Below are positions 1,424-48,335 of a stretch of DNA of 64,000 bases, piece by piece (position 1 is the first letter of the stretch; every line of letters begins with the position of its first letter). A model generated the notes under the pieces. It was not told the origin of the DNA. It saw nothing but the letters and a program-made list of their open reading frames with translations, and made no database searches. This DNA is from an uncultured Bacteroidales bacterium (GTDB taxonomy: Bacteria > Bacteroidota > Bacteroidia > Bacteroidales > Paludibacteraceae): the NCBI GenBank assembly GCA_902780235.1, contig CACZEL010000008.1:1-64000 (forward strand). Reading direction: 5' to 3'. The translations under genes and the position numbers were made by a program.

Positions 1424-2257
1424 ATGAGCAAACGCAAAAATCCATATATCTTTATCCTTCTTCTGGCGGCAGTACTGTGTATCGCCTCTGTGGTAGTTGT
1501 TAATAATCAATCGGTTGAAGAACAGGTTGCAGAACAGCCATCCACTACGGAAGTGGATAGTTTGGTGGCCTACGAGCTTGTCCGTTTGAATAATAACCAA
1601 CCGGAACAGGTGATCGAGCATATCGGTTATACCGTCAGTTATAACCCCACTTGGTTGGTGCCGAACTGGGTGGCTTATGAGTTAACAGCCGCTGAGACCG
1701 GCGGAGAGCAAGAGCGTTCGAACCATTTCAAACCCGACCCGTTGGTGGAAGGCGATCCGGTGGTGACGAGTGACTATTCGAAGTCAGGCTATGACCGTGG
1801 GCACATGGCACCGGCTGCCGATATGAAATGGTCGGAACAGGCTATGCGGGAGAGTTTCTATATGACCAATATGTGCCCGCAGTTGCACAACCTCAATGCA
1901 GGCGATTGGAAAGATCTGGAAGAGTTGGCTCGTTCCTGGGCACAACAATACGGGAGTATCTATATCGCTTGCGGACCGATTGTAGAAGCCGATTATCCTA
2001 CCATCGGCAAAAACCACACGATCGCTGTTCCTGCGGCTTTCTACAAGGTTTTCTTACGCCAGACGAACAAAGGCTGGACCTCGATCGGCTTTATTATGCC
2101 GAATCAGGCAGGAAACCGACCTCTGATGACCTATATGTTGCCGGTGGATGAAGTGGAAGCACAGACCGGTCTGGACTTCTTCTACAACCTTCCGGATAGC
2201 ATTGAAGCGCAAGTAGAAAGTGATTATAATATATCTGATTGGACTCTTAGCCGTTGA
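1424..2257 (+). CDS. DNA/RNA non-specific endonuclease (NucA/EndoG type)
   Basis: A 277-residue protein with an N-terminal membrane/signal segment (IFILLLAAVLCIASVVVV, residues 9-26), so it acts outside the cytoplasm or anchored to the inner membrane. The DRGHMAPAAD motif near residue 125 carries the catalytic histidine of the beta-beta-alpha metal nuclease family. The downstream NLNAGDWKDLE supplies the metal-binding Asn. These enzymes cleave DNA and RNA with little sequence preference. It starts one base after the preceding stop. Likely roles are nutrient scavenging or turnover of foreign DNA; the operon also carries the UmuDC polymerase, which may be coincidence. Confidence 0.9.
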   Translation: MSKRKNPYIFILLLAAVLCIASVVVVNNQSVEEQVAEQPSTTEVDSLVAYELVRLNNNQPEQVIEHIGYTVSYNPTWLVPNWVAYELTAAETGGEQERSNHFKPDPLVEGDPVVTSDYSKSGYDRGHMAPAADMKWSEQAMRESFYMTNMCPQLHNLNAGDWKDLEELARSWAQQYGSIYIACGPIVEADYPTIGKNHTIAVPAAFYKVFLRQTNKGWTSIGFIMPNQAGNRPLMTYMLPVDEVEAQTGLDFFYNLPDSIEAQVESDYNISDWTLSR

Positions 2258-6234: not shown

Positions 6235-7351
6235 ATGAAAGAATTACCGACATATACACCTGATTTCGAGGAGTATATCCGTCAAGGAGAACCCGAAAAG
6301 AAAGAGCGTGCGCAGATCTGGCGCACCGCTATCGGCTTGCAGCAAGTGGATGGTTTGGAGACCTCAGAATATTTGCGTGAGGTGGCTCGGCAACATATCG
6401 AAGGTGATATTACGCTGAAAGATGTCAAATCGCTTATTGATAGTTATTATAAAACCGAAGATGCACGCAATACGGAAGACGCTGAGGATAAACAAGAAGC
6501 TGATAAAGTATCTGAGCGTATTGCAGAACTTCTCTCGCAAAAGACATTCACGTTTAGCCCCGCACAATTGGTCGCTATTCATCGTCATCTCTTCCAAGGT
6601 ATTTATAAGTTTGCCGGTAAGATCCGCGATTATAATATCACTAAGAAAGAGTGGGTTCTTCGATGGGAAACAGTCCTTGGATTATTTAAAACATGACTTT
6701 GATAATGAAAAAGCGTTTGACTATTCTACACTTTCCTTATCAGAAGCTGTTAGTCATCTAACAATCTTTTGCAGAGATATTTGGCAGATACACCCCTTTG
6801 GAGAAGGGAACACACGTACTACGGCTGTTTTTATGATCAAGTATCTGCGCATGTTGGGCTTCAATGCTGATAATGATTTATTTGCAGAGAACTCGTGGTA
6901 TTTCCGTAACGCACTCGTACGCGCGAATTATAAGAATGTTCCGCAAGGTATTGACTATAGCCCGATATTCCTTGAGCGGTTCTTCCGCAATTTGCTGTTG
7001 GGCGAGAATCATCCTCTTTTAAACCGCGAAATGCACTTGGATTGGAAAGAACCATCAAGCACCCCCGCAAGTACCCCATCAAGTTCCCCAGCAAGTAGCC
7101 AAAATCAATTCGAGACGGACAATGAGAACGTAATAAGGTTAATGAAAGCATTAGGATACGAAAAATTATCCGTAAAAGAATTGATGGCGAGAGTAGGGTT
7201 AAAAGATAGAATGAATTTCATGGAATATTCTCTTAACCCTGCAATTAATACAGGATTTGTGAGAATGCTTTATCCAGAAAGTCCCAAGCACCCACGCCAA
7301 AAATACCTATTGACAGTAAAAGGTATCGGCTGGTACAATAGTCAAACATAA
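6235..7351 (+). pseudogene. Fic/DOC AMP-transferase gene, frameshifted with an internal deletion
   Basis: The first frame (6235-6696) encodes the Fic N-terminal part up to NITKKEWVL. The second frame resumes near 6663 with SLDYLKHDFDNEKAFDY, then the intact catalytic loop HPFGEGNTRT, and a C-terminal winged-helix segment to 7351. Between WVL and SLDY other Fic proteins have a stretch of roughly 15-20 residues (the GxTV...E flap region) that is missing here. The break is therefore a deletion plus a change of frame rather than a single-base slip. A Ser/Thr/Pro tandem-repeat linker (STPASTPSSSPASS) follows the Fic core. Fic enzymes transfer AMP to protein hydroxyls. Probably inactive, unless the reading is an assembly error. 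Confidence 0.8.
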
Positions 7352-7357
7352 AGAGTA

Positions 7358-7431
7358 GGGGTATTAGCTCATCTGGCTAGAGCGCGACACTGGCAGTGTC
7401 GAGGTGAGCGATTCGAGTCCGCTATACTCCA
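7358..7431 (+). tRNA. tRNA-Ala (anticodon GGC)
   Basis: A cloverleaf folds cleanly. The acceptor GGGGTAT pairs with ATACTCC and contains the G3:U70 wobble that marks alanine tRNAs. The D stem is GCTC/GAGC. The anticodon stem CGACA/TGTCG encloses the loop CTGGCAG, giving anticodon GGC. The T loop TTCGAGT is standard but its closing pair is A53:C61 instead of G:C. CCA is not encoded; discriminator is A. It starts 7 bp after the Fic stop and is probably read from the same transcript. Confidence 0.88.
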
Positions 7432-7441
7432 CAAAATCAAT

Positions 7442-7470: not shown

Positions 7471-7499
7471 GCATATATCAGAAAAAAGCAGTACCTTTG
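7468..7499 (+). promoter_or_regulatory. promoter of structured RNA A
   Basis: TTTGCATATATC at 7468, 20-bp spacing, TACCTTTG at 7492-7499. Start expected near 7506. Confidence 0.87.
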
Positions 7500-7505
7500 C
7501 ACCCG

Positions 7506-7801
7506 CAAACTCACGCTGGGGTGTCTGCGTGACATAACAGGGTGAGGGAGCAGACATATTTAATGGCGTTTACTAACGCTTGTTTTTGACTCATTGAAAC
7601 CTAGGAAACTTCAAAAAGTCATATATCTAGAAAACAAGTCGAAGTAGATGCTCATGGGTGTATTATACACTCACGTGTACTTCATTAGTGCATGTGTGTC
7701 CGCGTATATACACAGCGTGGGTTTCTGCATTGCTTATTCGGATATATGGGTTTTCCTAGGACCTCAATGAGCGGATAAGCAAAAAGGGAATCCGCGTTTT
7801 T
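7506..7801 (+). ncRNA. structured RNA, family member A (about 296 nt)
   Basis: No reading frame of note fills this stretch, yet it has its own promoter and a terminator. Visible helices: TGTCTGC/GCAGACA near 7522-7557; GCGTT/AACGC (7565-7579); CCTAGGAAAC (7600-7609) with GTTTTCCTAGG (7750-7760); CATATATC (7620-7627) with GATATATG (7741-7748); GTGTATTATAC (7658-7668) with GTATATACAC (7704-7713). The same order of helices with different bases, and shared loops TAGATGCnnATGGGT and GGTTTCnTG, occurs in RNA B at 47606-47892 on the other strand. It could be an independent small RNA or, if read through, a leader of the sugar genes at 7895. Possible match to the Rfam motif Bacteroidales-1, which also has a Bacteroidota promoter and terminator; not verified. 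Confidence 0.72.
7771..7801 (+). terminator. terminator of RNA A
   Basis: GCGGAT (7771-7776) pairs with ATCCGC (7790-7795), followed by GTTTTT. The remaining 93 bases to the next ATG hold no clear second promoter, so some read-through into the sugar operon is plausible. Confidence 0.6.
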
Positions 7802-7894
7802 AATTTATCCCATTCTCTTGTAGCCTAATCCTTTCAAAGACAATCGCCTTCGCCTTTGTCTATGTCTTTGTTATGAATTTTAAAACATCTAAGG

Positions 7895-8308
7895 ATGAAA
7901 CATACAACCATTGATGATTGCAGAATTATCGACATCCGCAAATACACAGATAACCGCGGGTATCTTTCAGTAATCGAAGAGGGTCTTGATATTCCCTTCG
8001 AAATCAAAAGAGTGTACTATCTCTATCTCGTTCCGGAAGCAGCGCGTGGAGCACATGCGCATAAGAAACTACAGCAATTACTGATTGCAACTAGCGGTTC
8101 TGTGGATGCCATTATGGATGACGGACAAAACAAAAAGACTTTCCATCTTGATAAGCCTTGGAAAGGGTTGCTTATTCCTTCTGGTCTTTGGCGTGATTTA
8201 GAAAACTTCTCCGGTGGAGCAGTGCTCATGTGCCTCGCTTCCGAAAAGTATAATGCAGATGATTATATTCGTGATTATAAAGTATTTTTGAAATTCAAAG
8301 GACAATGA
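7895..8308 (+). CDS. fdtA: dTDP-4-dehydro-6-deoxyglucose 3,4-ketoisomerase (FdtA/QdtA cupin)
   Basis: A 137-residue cupin protein. The N-terminal [12 protein letters not shown] and the [11 protein letters not shown] motif near residue 50, which holds the catalytic histidines, are typical of FdtA/QdtA/WxcM-like isomerases. They move the keto group of dTDP-4-dehydro-6-deoxyglucose from C4 to C3. The stop overlaps the next start (ATGA at 8305), so translation is coupled. Together with the acetyltransferase and aminotransferase downstream it makes dTDP-Fuc3NAc or dTDP-Qui3NAc; which epimer is not decidable from sequence by eye. Confidence 0.85.
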
Positions 8309-8757
8309 TACACCCCTTAGCAGATTGTCAAGCGCCCATCCCTGAATCCACACGAGTGTGGCAGTTCTGTGTCGTTCTTCCAAAGGCACAAATCGGTGAG
8401 AATTGCAACATTTGCAGTCATTGTATGATTGAAAATGATGTTCGTATCGGCAATAATGTCACAATAAAGAATGGTGTGCAAATATGGGACGGAATGACGA
8501 TTGAAGATAATGCTTTTATTGGCTCAAACGTCACGTTTACAAACGATAAATACCCTCGTTCTAAACAGTCCTTCGATTTGTTACCGATAACTATTAAGAA
8601 GGGTGCAACTATTGGCGGAGGTTCTTCTATCATTGGTGGTATAACAATAGGAGAGAATGCTATGATCGGAATCGGAAGTGTTGTTACGCACGATGTTCCG
8701 GCAGGAGAATTATGGTATGGTAATCCGGCAAGATTTATTCGGAAAATTGAGATATGA
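8305..8757 (+). CDS. hexapeptide-repeat sugar N-acetyltransferase (FdtC-like)
   Basis: A 150-residue left-handed beta-helix protein with repeats such as [20 protein letters not shown] and [20 protein letters not shown]. The insertion [10 protein letters not shown] and the C-terminal GNPARFIRK are typical of FdtC/QdtC-type acyl-CoA-dependent sugar acetyltransferases. It would N-acetylate the 3-amino group made by the aminotransferase at 9716. It overlaps both neighbours by four bases (ATGA). Confidence 0.82.
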
Positions 8758-9719
8758 GCAATAAAAAAGAAATAATGGTAACGGTTTGCATCGTTACTTA
8801 CAACCAAGAGAAATGGATTCGTCAAACGCTTGATTCTATTTTATCGCAACAAACGGACTATCCTTTTGAAATTATCATTGGAGAGGATCATGGTACAGAT
8901 GGCACTCGTGCTATTTGTCAAGAGTACGCGGATAAGTACGAGAATGTGACGTTGCTCCCATCGCCTACAAATCTCGGCGTAACAGCCAATTGGATTCAGT
9001 GTATTCAAGCCGGTTCTGGAAAGTATATAATGACTTGCGCCGGAGACGATTGGTGGCACAACCCCAAGAAAATTCAACTGCAAGTGGACTTTATGGAGGT
9101 TCATCCGGAGTGTTGTATTTGTCATACCGATGAAGATGAGTACTATGAGAATACAGGCGTGCTCAAAAAAGCAGTCAAACAATTAAATGGTATTGTGCCG
9201 CCGGAAGGCAGAATCCAGAATATGATTTTAAGCGGAAGAGAATATATGTCTGCTGTAACGATGTGTATTCGTCGTTCTACATTTGAAGAACATGTTCCGG
9301 CAGATGAGTTTGCACGTCGTCGCTTCCCCCGAGAAGATTGGCCAACCATATTAGTCCTTGCCGCTTATGGAGATATTCGATATATTCCCGTCTCTACGGC
9401 TACGTATCGTGTCGGACAAGAGTCCATTACTCGCACTTCCAATTATGAAAAAGTCATCCTCCGTGCTCAGCAAGATATGGAGATGACCAAGTATCTATAT
9501 ACATTGTTCCCTGAATGGGGACCGTTCTGTGACGAGCCATATTATAATTACATCGGTTACCACAATGCTTTACATGCCGCATATCGGAACAATGATTACA
9601 AAGCGGCACATGAGTTCGCCAAGCAAGACAAAACCAATTCATGGGCAACTCGTTTTGCTCGTACTAAACTGACATTCAAACTATTCCGATGGATTCAAAC
9701 AAAACGAAGAAGACTATGA
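8754..9719 (+). CDS. family 2 glycosyltransferase
   Basis: A 321-residue GT-A protein without membrane segments. [21 protein letters not shown] starts the nucleotide-binding fold; [12 protein letters not shown] and the [13 protein letters not shown] motif around residue 100 hold the DXD-type metal site. It probably transfers the amino-sugar made by the flanking genes to a surface glycan. It overlaps the genes on both sides by four bases, so all four are one coupled unit. Confidence 0.86.
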
Positions 9720-10837
9720 CAGTTCCATTTCTATCTCTTAAAGACATCACAGCCCAGTACGCTGATGAAATCCACGAAGCCGCGCTCCGCGTTATTGATT
9801 GTGGTTGGTATCTGCAAGGCAAGGAAAACGAAGCTTTTGAAAGGCACTATGCCGACTATATAGGTAGTAAGTACTGCATCGGCTGTGCTAACGGCTTGGA
9901 TGCACTGATATGGATATATCGTGCATATATCGAATTAGGAGTAATGCAGCCTGGCGATGAAGTAATCGTTCCGGCTAATACGTACATTGCTTCTATTCTT
10001 GCTATCACCGAGAATGGTCTGAAACCGGTATTAATAGAGCCAAATCCGGAAACATTGGAGATTGATGACACCAAGATAGAAGCAGCCATCACTCCACGCA
10101 CGAAATCTATTCTTATTGTGCATCTCTATGGTCGTTGCGCAATGACGGAGAAGATAGCTGAGATTTGTAAGAAGCATAACTTACGGCTGGTAGAAGATAA
10201 TGCTCAAGCGCACGGCTGTCTCTGGAATGGTAAACATACCGGTTCTATTGGTGAAGCCGCTGGTCATTCCTTCTATCCGGGTAAGAACCTCGGCGCTTTA
10301 GGTGACGCTGGAGCTGTAACTACCGACAATAAGGAGTTGGCTGATGCTATCCGTGCACTTGCCAACTATGGCTCACAACGCAAATATGTCTTTAAATATA
10401 CAGGCCGTAATAGCCGTTTAGACGAGATCCAAGCCGCTATCCTCGACGTCAAGTTGTGCCACTTGGACGATGACATTGCTTTGCGTCAGCAAGTTGCGGA
10501 TTATTACTACGACCACATTTCCAATCCACTCATTTCTCTGCCGACACGCTTGCTACACCAACAAAACGTGTATCACTTGTTCCCGATATTGGTATCAGAC
10601 GGCAAGCGTGACGCTCTGCACGATTATTTGGAGCAAAGAGGCATAGGCACCGTTATTCATTATCCTATTGCTCCGCACAAACAAGAGTGCTATGCGTGTG
10701 AGGCATGGAACATCCCACAATTATCCCTTCCGATAACCGAACGTCTCGCTGATGAAGAACTCTCCTTACCGATGAGTCCGTGCATAACTTTAGAGCAATT
10801 AGAGTATGTGGTAAAAACTATTAACGAATTTGCATAA
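9716..10837 (+). CDS. fdtB: DegT/DnrJ/EryC1/StrS sugar aminotransferase (FdtB-like)
   Basis: From ATG 9716 the product is 373 residues ([11 protein letters not shown]). A longer reading from 9689 is possible but the ATGA overlap with the previous stop matches the rest of the operon. PLP-binding lysine lies in [18 protein letters not shown] near residue 185, and EDNAQAHG precedes it. The enzyme transfers an amino group to the 3-keto sugar made by the FdtA-like isomerase. The C-terminal [13 protein letters not shown] motif is typical of the family. Confidence 0.9.
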
Positions 10838-46345: not shown

Positions 46346-46544
46346 TCCAGAATAGAATTTCTGGAAACAGACGAAGGTGGGTGCCATGCGGAGAGGAACG
46401 CATAGTATAGCGCGGGGAGTTAGCCCCGCGAGCAGGACCGGCGGATGGGAACGAGCGCACATGAATGTGCGCGCATAGACGCTATATAAACATGACGGCG
46501 TTTTTCTATCCGCCAAGATTGGACGGATACGGGAGAAAAACGCC
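46346..46544. repeat. mosaic of extragenic palindromes
   Basis: Left block 46346-46397 (CCAGAATAGAATTTCTGG hairpin then GACGAAGGTGGGTG) recurs at 49383-49434. Centre: GCGGGG/CCCCGC hairpin near 46410-46430. Right block 46474-46544, ATAGACGCTATATAAACA followed by a 48-bp palindromic unit (46497-46544) with arms GGCGTTTTTCT/AGAAAAACGCC, recurs at 48264-48335. No coding capacity. Confidence 0.85.
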
Positions 46545-46736: not shown

Positions 46737-47168
46737 TTATTTCAAAACGCCCTCAATATCCTCACGAATTTGGCGACCTAACACATCGCTATAACCATCT
46801 ACCCATTCATCACGAATTAATCTTTGCACCTCTGTTTTAACAGAAAGTTGTGTCCTGTCGTGATTAAATTTAATGGTAACACGAACGCGCGCTTTCTTGT
46901 CTTGAATTCCTTTGGCTTTACGATAGTAGTTCCAAGCTGTACGCGCATAACCACCATCTTTGTTAATCATTTCCATTTCGTACTTTTCCGTTAACAGATC
47001 AAGCGCAGTAGAAAAGGCTTGCTTGTAGTCAAAATTCTCGTGGATCTGTACGCGCATCCACTCTGCCTGACCTTTGTGCCATCCTTTCACTGAAGCACAA
47101 CCTAACGAAACCATCACAAATACTCCTGCAACCAAGCAAGAGCACAATGTTTTAATTGATTTTTTCAT
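46737..47168 (-). CDS. lipoprotein of unknown function
   Basis: A 143-residue lipoprotein (lipobox VSLGCAS, Cys near residue 25). The mature part has KARVRVTIKFNHDRTQLSVK and a DEWVDGYSDVLGRQIREDI ending; no known family is recognised. Its start overlaps the end of the VanZ-like gene by 17 bp, so the two are co-translated. Confidence 0.72.
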   Translation of the reverse strand: MKKSIKTLCSCLVAGVFVMVSLGCASVKGWHKGQAEWMRVQIHENFDYKQAFSTALDLLTEKYEMEMINKDGGYARTAWNYYRKAKGIQDKKARVRVTIKFNHDRTQLSVKTEVQRLIRDEWVDGYSDVLGRQIREDIEGVLK

Positions 47169-47598
47169 AAGAGATTTGTTTTAGTTTGTTAATTAATAAA
47201 AATAGCAAAATTGCTGTTATATAAGCCATAATATCCCAAGCATCTCCCGTCCCGAGAAAATATCCAATACATTGCATATATTCCACTACGAAAGCAAATA
47301 CGACAATCATTATGCAAAATACCCATTTCATACGTTTTTCGTTTCCCCAAATGCCCTCCATAAACAGTAGAAACGACAATAACCAAAGACCATCAGGCAA
47401 ATTATATTTAACCCAAGGAGCCATAACAACGGAATGGTCTCTAATACATTCAAAAAAGCCATTATAGTAGTCTATTCCCAACCATTCATACAATGCCATA
47501 TTTGCACTCCTGCTACTAACATAGATATACGCCGCAAAAACAAACAATACTGTAGCCCAAAGTATACTATGTAGTCTTCGTTTTAATGTCCTTTTCAT
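47152..47598 (-). CDS. VanZ-like membrane protein
   Basis: A 148-residue protein with four membrane segments. NLPDGLWLLSFLLFMEGIWG and FVVEYMQCIGYFLGTGDAWD resemble VanZ-family proteins (acidic Glu and DxxD-type positions). Role unknown; VanZ homologues are linked to cell-envelope or glycopeptide resistance but also occur in many strains without it. Confidence 0.65.
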   Translation of the reverse strand: MKRTLKRRLHSILWATVLFVFAAYIYVSSRSANMALYEWLGIDYYNGFFECIRDHSVVMAPWVKYNLPDGLWLLSFLLFMEGIWGNEKRMKWVFCIMIVVFAFVVEYMQCIGYFLGTGDAWDIMAYITAILLFLLINKLKQISYEKIN

Positions 47599-47605
47599 GA
47601 TGCAT

Positions 47606-47892
47606 AAAAAAAAGCGCAGACCTCGTGCTGTTTACTCATGCACTGAGGCCTTCGCATTGCCTAACGACTCAAATAAACAACAGGAAACCTACGCCGATAT
47701 GACAAACGCCCCGCATAGATACAGCGAGAGCGGGTAATGTCATACCCATAGGCATCTATTGCTACTTTGGTTCTGAGTCGTTTTAGAAAGTTGCGAAGTT
47801 TCAGTACATCAAACGCAAAGCGTCAATAAACGCTATCAATATGTCCGAAAATCCACCCTATATGAAGAGACATTTCCCTACTAAATGGATTT
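47606..47892 (-). ncRNA. structured RNA, family member B (about 287 nt)
   Basis: Transcribed from the promoter at 47899-47930 and ended by a GC hairpin (GGCCTC...GAGGTC) followed by eight T (47613-47606). Helices on the minus strand: GAAAATCCA/TGGATTTTC at the 5' end; GCGTTTATTGACGC; CTTCGCA (47798-47792) with TGCGAAG (47656-47650); ACGACTCA (47781-47774) with TGAGTCGT (47671-47664); TATGACA (47744-47738) with TGTCATA (47704-47698), enclosing CCCGC/GCGGG. Loop motifs TAGATGCCTATGGGT and GTAGGTTTCCTG match RNA A at 7506-7801. The helix bases differ from A but remain paired. No protein frame. Confidence 0.75.
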
Positions 47893-47898
47893 TCGGCG

Positions 47899-47930
47899 CA
47901 AAATTACTAATAATTTTTGACATATGCAAA
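47899..47930 (-). promoter_or_regulatory. promoter of structured RNA B
   Basis: Minus strand TTTGCATATGTC (from 47930), 20-bp spacing, TAATTTTG (47906-47899). Confidence 0.86.
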
Positions 47931-48206: not shown

Positions 48207-48263
48207 GCGAGGGGCTAATCTGCCTATGCCCGAGCCCACCTCAAGCGGCTGGAAGAAGAACGC

Positions 48264-48335
48264 ACATAGACGCTATATAAACAGGGCGGCGTTTTTCTAT
48301 CCGCCAAGATTGGACGGATACAGGAGAAAAACGCC
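48264..48335. repeat. palindromic repeat unit, second copy
   Basis: ATAGACGCTATATAAACA then the 48-bp unit 48288-48335 (GGCGTTTTTCT, ATCCGCCAAGATTGGACGGAT, AGAAAAACGCC). It is nearly identical to 46474-46544, differing at about one or two bases in the palindromic core. Confidence 0.88.

Follow-up and report, generated by a model that had tools for sequence, protein, structure and literature searches.

A multicopy structured RNA of Bacteroidales that appears to be a regulatory leader with a strand-sharing terminator

Introduction

The gene-free stretch displayed above lies in a 64,000-nucleotide piece of an uncultured Bacteroidales genome (the window, meaning the whole stretch of DNA analysed). 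It raises the question of what RNA it encodes and whether that RNA acts by itself or on the genes behind it. An earlier note, made from the sequence alone, had proposed a self-contained structured RNA with one distant sister copy. The underlying observation is confirmed here and is larger than first described: there are many further copies, and they occupy a fixed site 5' of same-strand genes, both of which the earlier note had missed.

Results

Two homologous copies in the window

By sequence comparison within the window, copy 1 (7500-7803, forward strand) is homologous to copy 2 (47606-47899, reverse strand), and a check of the sequences bore out the common order of elements claimed for them. 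Each copy folds better than its own shuffles (copy 1: z -7.5, 0 of 100 shuffles as good; copy 2: z -5.8, 0 of 200). Two separate covariance models were used for the family, one of the left half (R1) and one of the right half (R2); copy 2 matches the former at 47737-47845 (E 7.7e-16) and the latter at 47611-47702 (E 5.0e-10). The promoter element that the earlier note had placed before copy 1 is present, and copy 2 has its own:

7492-7499, forward strand: -7 promoter element TACCTTTG of copy 1 (from the sequence)
47899-47906, reverse strand: -7 promoter element TAATTTTG of copy 2 (from the sequence)
47606-47893, reverse strand: copy 2 of the putative leader, with hairpin P1, conserved strand GACATATT, hairpin P2, core, and U-tract at 47606-47613 (from the half-model matches)

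A tRNA-Ala gene (GGC, 7358-7432) stops some 60 bases short of the copy 1 promoter. Immediately ahead of this tRNA and of copy 1, at 6422-7351, a Fic-family protein is encoded.

Comparison with Rfam and the literature

The Bacteroidales-1 motif has a promoter and a terminator at its ends, and the earlier note had named it as a possible identity for this RNA. Rfam gave 0 matches in the 64-kb window at the gathering threshold. When both window copies were scanned against all 4227 Rfam families up to an E-value of 10, only unrelated weak hits were returned; the Bacteroidales-1 model (RF01693), which the RNA resembles in belonging to Bacteroidales (as far as described in PMC2864571), matched neither copy. 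The Rfam scan that the earlier note had called for thus found neither copy covered by a known model, and the suggested Bacteroidales-1 identity falls away. Its alternative suggestion, a new RNA family, is supported as far as Rfam 15 goes. Membership of any Rfam 15 family, Bacteroidales-1 included, was rejected as no score exceeded the gathering threshold. A further scan of 20 loci, 19 with a copy and one without (L016), detected only tRNA and SAM-II, both away from the RNA. Membership of EAR/epsC (RF01735) was likewise rejected, this family not being among the Rfam matches of the window, the copies or the 20 loci. No description of this RNA was found among the best-ranked matches in open-access PMC. 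The fold appears to be new, and in kind the RNA appears to be a regulatory leader; bacterial leader RNAs of such size with several crossing helices are uncommon. In a different genus, a SAM-II riboswitch (L104, 1881-1940) lies close to one copy of the RNA.

Fold of the RNA

In a 30-sequence alignment, 87.5% of the cells of the named structure, crossing helices included, are paired. Shuffles give 74.5%, with 0 of 500 equalling the real value, and slid versions of the structure give 39-51%. Changes on both sides occur in 37 of 60 pairs. For a blind scan, the two halves were aligned to their separate models and 19701 column pairs were ranked over 87 non-redundant copies. Its leaders are pairs of helices b, a and c, which are in neither half model; helices d and P3, both already in the models, rank next, and lower ranks hold contacts not previously drawn. 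The features of copy 1, all on the forward strand, are given below with their basis. Percentages are paired cells in the 30-sequence alignment, except for e, k, m, n and the terminator stem, which were counted in alignments of 104 or 96 rows; the former includes the antisense match L162 and the partial copy L032, the latter the antisense match L030, all three outside the 95 paired copies.

7505-7551, forward strand: 5' hairpin P1, variable in sequence (fold against shuffles: the 60 nt upstream of GACATATT have a mean z of -2.27, with z < -1 in 84/104)
7553-7560, forward strand: conserved strand GACATATT (comparison of copies, partial ones left out)
7566-7579, forward strand: hairpin P2, GCGTTTACTAACGC (95.2% paired)
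7571-7646, forward strand: contact k, P2 loop 7571-7574 with 7643-7646 in the strand before the core (blind scan; 88.5% paired, 20 cells changed on both sides, 0/500 shuffles as high)
7580-7637, forward strand: helix P3, 7580-7586 with 7631-7637, crossing a, b and c (blind scan and alignment; 81.9% paired, both-side changes in 4/7 pairs)
7590-7771, forward strand: helix a, 7590-7596 with 7765-7771 (among the top blind-scan pairs; 82.7% paired, both-side changes in 7/7 pairs)
7595-7613, forward strand: hairpin e, 7595-7598 with 7610-7613, its loop holding the 5' strand of b (pairing counts; 85.3% paired, 19-69% when slid, 48 cells changed on both sides, 0/500 shuffles as high)
7600-7760, forward strand: helix b, 7600-7605 with 7755-7760 (top three of the 19701 pairs in the blind scan; 96.7% paired, both-side changes in 5/6 pairs)
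7620-7748, forward strand: helix c, 7620-7627 with 7741-7748 (blind scan and alignment; 77.9% paired, outer pairs mostly gapped)
7644-7728, forward strand: core stem of helices f, g and h with a variable central hairpin (alignment; 87.4% paired, both-side changes in 9/16 pairs, g well kept in its first 3 pairs only)
7715-7797, forward strand: helix m, 7715-7720 with 7792-7797, ending at the U-tract (pairing and energy; 97.3% paired, 21-65% when slid, 32 cells changed on both sides)
7730-7782, forward strand: helix d, 7730-7740 with 7772-7782, crossing c, b and a (alignment and energy; 89.2% paired, both-side changes in 7/11 pairs)
7749-7763, forward strand: hairpin n, 7749-7751 with 7761-7763, its loop holding the 3' strand of b (pairing counts; 92.7% paired, 25-66% when slid, 21 cells changed on both sides)

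In helix m, the conserved core strand GCGTGG pairs with the last six bases ahead of the U-tract; the energy of m averages -15.6 kcal/mol against -6.5 for shuffled partners and is better than the shuffled mean in 95/95 copies. For helix d, the corresponding means over the 95 copies are -13.2 and -5.4 kcal/mol. Since 7595-7596 belong to both, hairpin e and helix a cannot both be complete. The two strands of helix b lie in the loops of e and n, so that, judged from the pairing pattern, b looks like a loop-loop (kissing) contact if these two hairpins form.

Of the four covarying helices in the earlier note, three proved to be general in the family, both in the 30-sequence alignment and in the blind scan: CCTAGG with CCTAGG is helix b, CATATATC/GATATATG is helix c and GTGTA/TACAC is helix h. 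The fourth, TGTCTGC/GCAGACA, is doubtful in copy 1, because it takes bases of the conserved GACATATT and clashes with the 5' hairpin of other copies (judged by eye). Helices a, e and n and the crossing helices P3, d, k and m had gone unnoticed. In copy 1 (at 7522-7556) and in several relatives, the outer P1 hairpin and TGTCTGC/GCAGACA compete for bases (by eye), and a second switch in the 5' domain is possible. We also considered whether the 3' strand of P2 pairs with the tail that precedes the U-tract, and rejected this because such a pairing fails in copy 2 (by eye).

Distribution of the family

The covariance-model search of the own genome and other Bacteroidales that the earlier note had recommended yielded further homologues. 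The own genome holds at least 8 copies (left-half model, E < 1e-6). Five weaker left-half matches there lie between E 0.006 and 0.5: one is the antisense of a listed copy, one (contig C21) is accompanied by a match to the right-half model, and three are not. BLAST located further own-genome copies on contigs C7 and C2. Copy 1 DNA is matched at E 0.001 in 42 of the 61 genomes of a genus sample, the own genome included. In an order sample, 38 of 295 Bacteroidales genomes and 26 of 183 genera have a left-half match, with up to at least 13 copies per genome; searches of more than 40 genomes applied stricter filters and capped the candidates scored in each genome (at 13 in the order sample). The left-half model found no match in the other 257 of the 295 genomes, which suggests that the device is dispensable. 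Among 395 genomes drawn from the phylum, none outside Bacteroidales matched at E 1e-5, the two that did being the own genome and one of the same order. The family is thus spread over many Bacteroidales genera, yet has no match in Rfam 15.

The two halves generally occur together. A right-half match lies beside the left-half match in 33/37 loci and in 87/92 copies (taken from 90 chosen sources, 5 copies being without a separate right-half match), and beside a P2/P3 sequence pattern in 73/80 loci. Four of the seven pattern loci without a right half (L209, L226, L245, L268) are at stretch ends, and the remaining three (L196, L207, L267) are probably chance hits. Among the matches listed, pattern hits fall in records titled Paludibacteraceae, Muribaculaceae, Prevotella and others. 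They include records of the named strains Prevotellamassilia timonensis Marseille-P2831T and Prevotella sp. AGR2160, which makes the RNA testable in culture. Three hits lie in records titled Competibacteraceae and Clostridium: L267, where the right half is missing, and L240 and L241, where it is present and which may be mislabelled Bacteroidales contigs. Partial or rearranged copies, as if decaying, were seen at L032 (2409-2513), L083 (3011-3049) and L059 (3153-3287).

So many dispersed copies per genome could also be read as a DNA repeat or mobile element that does not work as RNA, and copy 2 with its genes is indeed flanked by 75-nt direct repeats. The compensatory changes in many helices, together with a strand-specific U-tract and promoter, speak against this reading, which we hold to be extremely improbable. 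An origin from phages or plasmids was rejected: no match was found for the pattern in viral contigs, for copy 1 in phage records or for copy 2 in plasmid records. The direct repeats (46470-46544 and 48261-48335) are 95% identical, stand 1791 bases apart from start to start and have partial matches at five further places in the genome; they are a possible recombination site for the cassette.

Promoter and position relative to genes

In 77/95 copies the motif TAnnTTTG lies no more than 160 nt upstream of GACATATT, most often at a distance of 51-70 nt. The motif is present in 8.2% of shuffles and in 7.9% of 3922 genomic tiles. From 215 distinct copies, those with enough flank were scored for their neighbours. 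The downstream gene is on the same strand in 186/197 copies, the upstream gene in 127/203, and ordinary neighbouring genes in 488/688 pairs. The downstream bias has a binomial p of 9e-17 against ordinary pairs and a Fisher p of 2e-15, values that are optimistic because related copies are not independent. In the pattern-derived subset alone, the downstream gene is on the same strand in 60/63. The next ORF, taken mechanically as the first ATG with at least 40 open codons, begins no further than 25 nt from the U run in 15/85 copies and no further than 60 nt in 41/85, so there is often no room for a second promoter.

This same-strand position and spacing indicate that the RNA is the 5' leader of the following operon, and not mainly the self-contained 290-nt RNA gene of the earlier note. 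A stand-alone RNA, acting in trans or bound by a protein and lying before genes by chance, would explain why it has a promoter and a terminator of its own, and 11/197 copies do have an opposite-strand gene next. It would leave unexplained a same-strand bias that exists downstream and not upstream, as well as start codons that in some copies lie at the U-tract, and we judge it improbable.

An amino-acid attenuator with a leader peptide was rejected on the one frame tested: the core ATG is present in 78/95 copies with ORFs of 2 to 81 codons, no conserved reading frame starts from it, and its spacing modulo 3 is spread as 34/31/30 over the 95 copies.

A terminator whose strands have two partners

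7771-7801, forward strand: terminator hairpin, 7771-7776 with 7790-7795, followed by the U-tract 7797-7801 (hairpin and U-run counts)

The terminator claimed by the earlier note for copy 1 is present, with the qualification that its strands are also strands of other helices: 7772-7776 are shared with d, and 7792-7795 with m. Across the family, with the local terminator sought from the d strand onward only, a hairpin of at least 4 pairs ending no more than 3 nt from the U run was found in 83/95 copies, and in 82 of these 83 it has at least 3 bases in common with helix d. A U run of at least 4 is present in 89/95 copies. The RNA therefore has two traits of an attenuator leader, namely a site directly 5' of a same-strand gene and a terminator hairpin with U-tract that excludes the conserved helix d.

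A second exchange involves the core. In copy 1, 7716-7720 are common to helix m and core helix g, and over the 95 copies the core bases 7719 and 7720 covary with both their g and their m partners. The g-core-m triples at 7719 are C-G-C in 60 copies and T-A-T in 5, the rest mainly G-U variants; at 7720 they are C-G-C in 50 and T-A-T in 9. Strands that covary with both partners are as expected of a two-state RNA.

Which state stops transcription is less clear-cut. The terminator stem is the least kept of the helices counted (69.7%), 12/95 copies have no local terminator hairpin by the criterion used, and that of copy 2, although counted among the 83, is weak (-2.5 kcal/mol, with shuffles at -4.7). 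Helix m is better kept and ends directly at the U-tract, and for these reasons it may itself be a terminator stem, in some or all copies, rather than an antiterminator. The two-state switch is accordingly held more firmly than the on and off labels of its states.

Downstream genes

7895-10837, forward strand: operon after copy 1, encoding an FdtA-type sugar isomerase, a hexapeptide acyltransferase, a glycosyltransferase 2 and a DegT/DnrJ aminotransferase (Pfam)
46737-47598, reverse strand: two ORFs after copy 2, of 148 and 143 aa (no Pfam match)

The first ORF after copy 2 has its start codon 7 nt past the U-tract and, by eye only, resembles what we take to be VanZ-like membrane proteins. The first genes after 92 copies, less 5 on the opposite strand and 1 missing, gave 86 proteins that match 81 Pfam families; among the best 25 of these families, BspA-type repeats are commonest (7), with glycosyltransferase 2 (3) and cytosine methylase (2) also present. 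The second and third genes (118 proteins, after 10/128 were left out, one of 2569 aa for its size and nine trimmed) include BspA repeats (11), radical SAM (5) and caspase domains (3) among the best 25 of 124 families. In a defence library, DNA methylases were matched by first genes (best 25 of 174 families), and PDC-S01 (3 members), methylases and PglX by later genes (best 25 of 108 families).

Many of the copies nearest to copy 1 stand 5' of surface-sugar genes. In 30 first and second genes from 21 chosen loci, a set without certain second genes and without the first genes of L023, L028 and L030, which are on the opposite strand, the best 25 of 45 families include DegT, TupA-like ATP-grasp, FdtA, glycosyltransferases, Glf, GtrA and MBOAT, along with some that are not of the surface-sugar kind. 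None of the surface-sugar families named here is among the 25 families found in 32 upstream ORFs of such loci (5/37 left out). The cargo is accessory, does not belong to one pathway and was probably acquired horizontally. The Pfam families of the first to third genes point to no obvious common metabolite, which may argue against an ordinary riboswitch, although one sequence group is rich in polysaccharide genes.

In three places the leader is followed by small proteins with the same SRREFFKKAAK stretch: L240 (right half at 2041-2140, minus strand), L068 (3210-3524) and L076 (2470-2760). At L240 the next ORF shows, by eye, a CxxxCxxC motif like that of radical SAM enzymes, and from their sequences these loci look like a modified-peptide cassette.

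Proposed mechanism

We hypothesize, and consider it likely, that the RNA is a cis-acting 5' leader of about 290 nt with a conditional terminator, i.e. an attenuator, in which a knotted fold keeps the terminator strands apart. Transcription would start at the Bacteroidales-type promoter just before P1, and the RNA would fold during its synthesis. The 3' strands c', b' and a' would fold back to pair with the 5' half, with b probably a kissing contact of hairpins e and n, and would thereby close a compact core with several crossing helices. Helices d and m of this closed fold would occupy both strands of the terminator hairpin at the U-tract, so that RNA polymerase reads into the operon. If the fold is not reached, either as g holds the m strand or as a signal favours the open form, transcription would stop at the U-tract and release a free RNA of about 290 nt, the attenuated transcript to be expected. 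The leader would in this way probably help to decide whether the downstream genes are read. We infer that the RNA is expressed, that the closed fold is the on-state, and that the choice is driven by a signal, which could be a small molecule, a protein or the elongation complex. If the RNA works as proposed, a single fold helps to determine when gut bacteria express traits with which they confront hosts, phages and rivals: surface polysaccharides, adhesin-like proteins and restriction systems.

The attenuator has most of its anatomy in common with its main rival, RNA-only processive antitermination of the EAR or HK022 put type, in which the leader would bind the polymerase and make it resistant to terminators along the operon, so that accessory operons could escape early termination. 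The knotted architecture and the lack of an obvious shared metabolite downstream would suit such a device, and the cargo (surface polysaccharide, adhesin-like, probably horizontally acquired) resembles the targets of RfaH as outlined in PMC7819879. NusG-family genes were counted at E 1e-5 in 30 of the 38 RNA-carrying genomes and in 18 genomes without a match. One such gene only was found in 17 of the 30 RNA-carrying genomes, so that a specialised NusG paralogue seems not to be needed, as an RNA-only mechanism would have it. Many downstream same-strand runs, however, are short, copy 2 is followed by two small ORFs, and the element ends in its own terminator; we know of no such end terminator in put or EAR. 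Processive antitermination is therefore regarded as unlikely. The same guarded standing is given to its extension, in which Bacteroidales would possess a portable, protein-independent RNA antitermination module as a counterpart to RfaH, carried as promoter-plus-leader cassettes that would allow accessory surface, peptide and defence operons to be transcribed in full, with its end terminator serving as a checkpoint.

The NusG counts bear equally on the possibility that a specialised, UpxY-type paralogue of NusG acts on the leader. Copy 1 lies 5' of polysaccharide genes, and UpxY proteins act in the 5' leaders of Bacteroides fragilis capsule operons, according to PMC7819879. The 17 genomes with a single NusG-family gene at E 1e-5 include the own genome, which is 79% complete, and several that are 98-100% complete, although weaker paralogues could escape at this threshold. 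On these counts a UpxY-type leader, which requires a specialised paralogue, was rejected as very improbable.

Related leader RNAs

Compared with these and other known systems, the attenuator proposed here shares single traits with each. The EAR element is about 125 nt long, and the present RNA is more than twice as long. EAR (epsC motif) of Bacillales is likewise a structured pseudoknot leader before exopolysaccharide genes that is linked to antitermination, as summarized in PMC2864571; it occurs in other bacteria and gave no cmscan match, and the present RNA differs in its several crossing helices, its own end terminator and a wider cargo. The UpxY-dependent capsule leaders of B. fragilis belong to the same order, and in them too transcription of surface polysaccharide operons can end prematurely within the 5' leader, as described in PMC7819879. 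They are activated by a NusG paralogue encoded beside the operon, which the gene content here does not require. Pseudoknotted riboswitches with a transcription terminator provide a parallel for core closure that competes with the terminator, but no Rfam class of this kind matched here and the cargo has no obvious common metabolite. The JUMPstart element is reportedly 39 bp long, going by the title of a cited reference. JUMPstart/ops of Gammaproteobacteria (RF01707) is comparable as a leader element before polysaccharide and other surface operons, in the account of PMC2864571, but is short and depends on RfaH, and the present RNA has no Rfam match.

A last comparison, made by description only, concerns the candidate HMP2_1881 of Fremin and Bhatt (2021), which according to PMC8040213 is a 108-bp Bacteroidetes RNA near radical SAM genes, expressed in 13/13 instances. 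Some copies of the present RNA also lie 5' of radical SAM genes, and HMP2_1881 might be a fragment of it.
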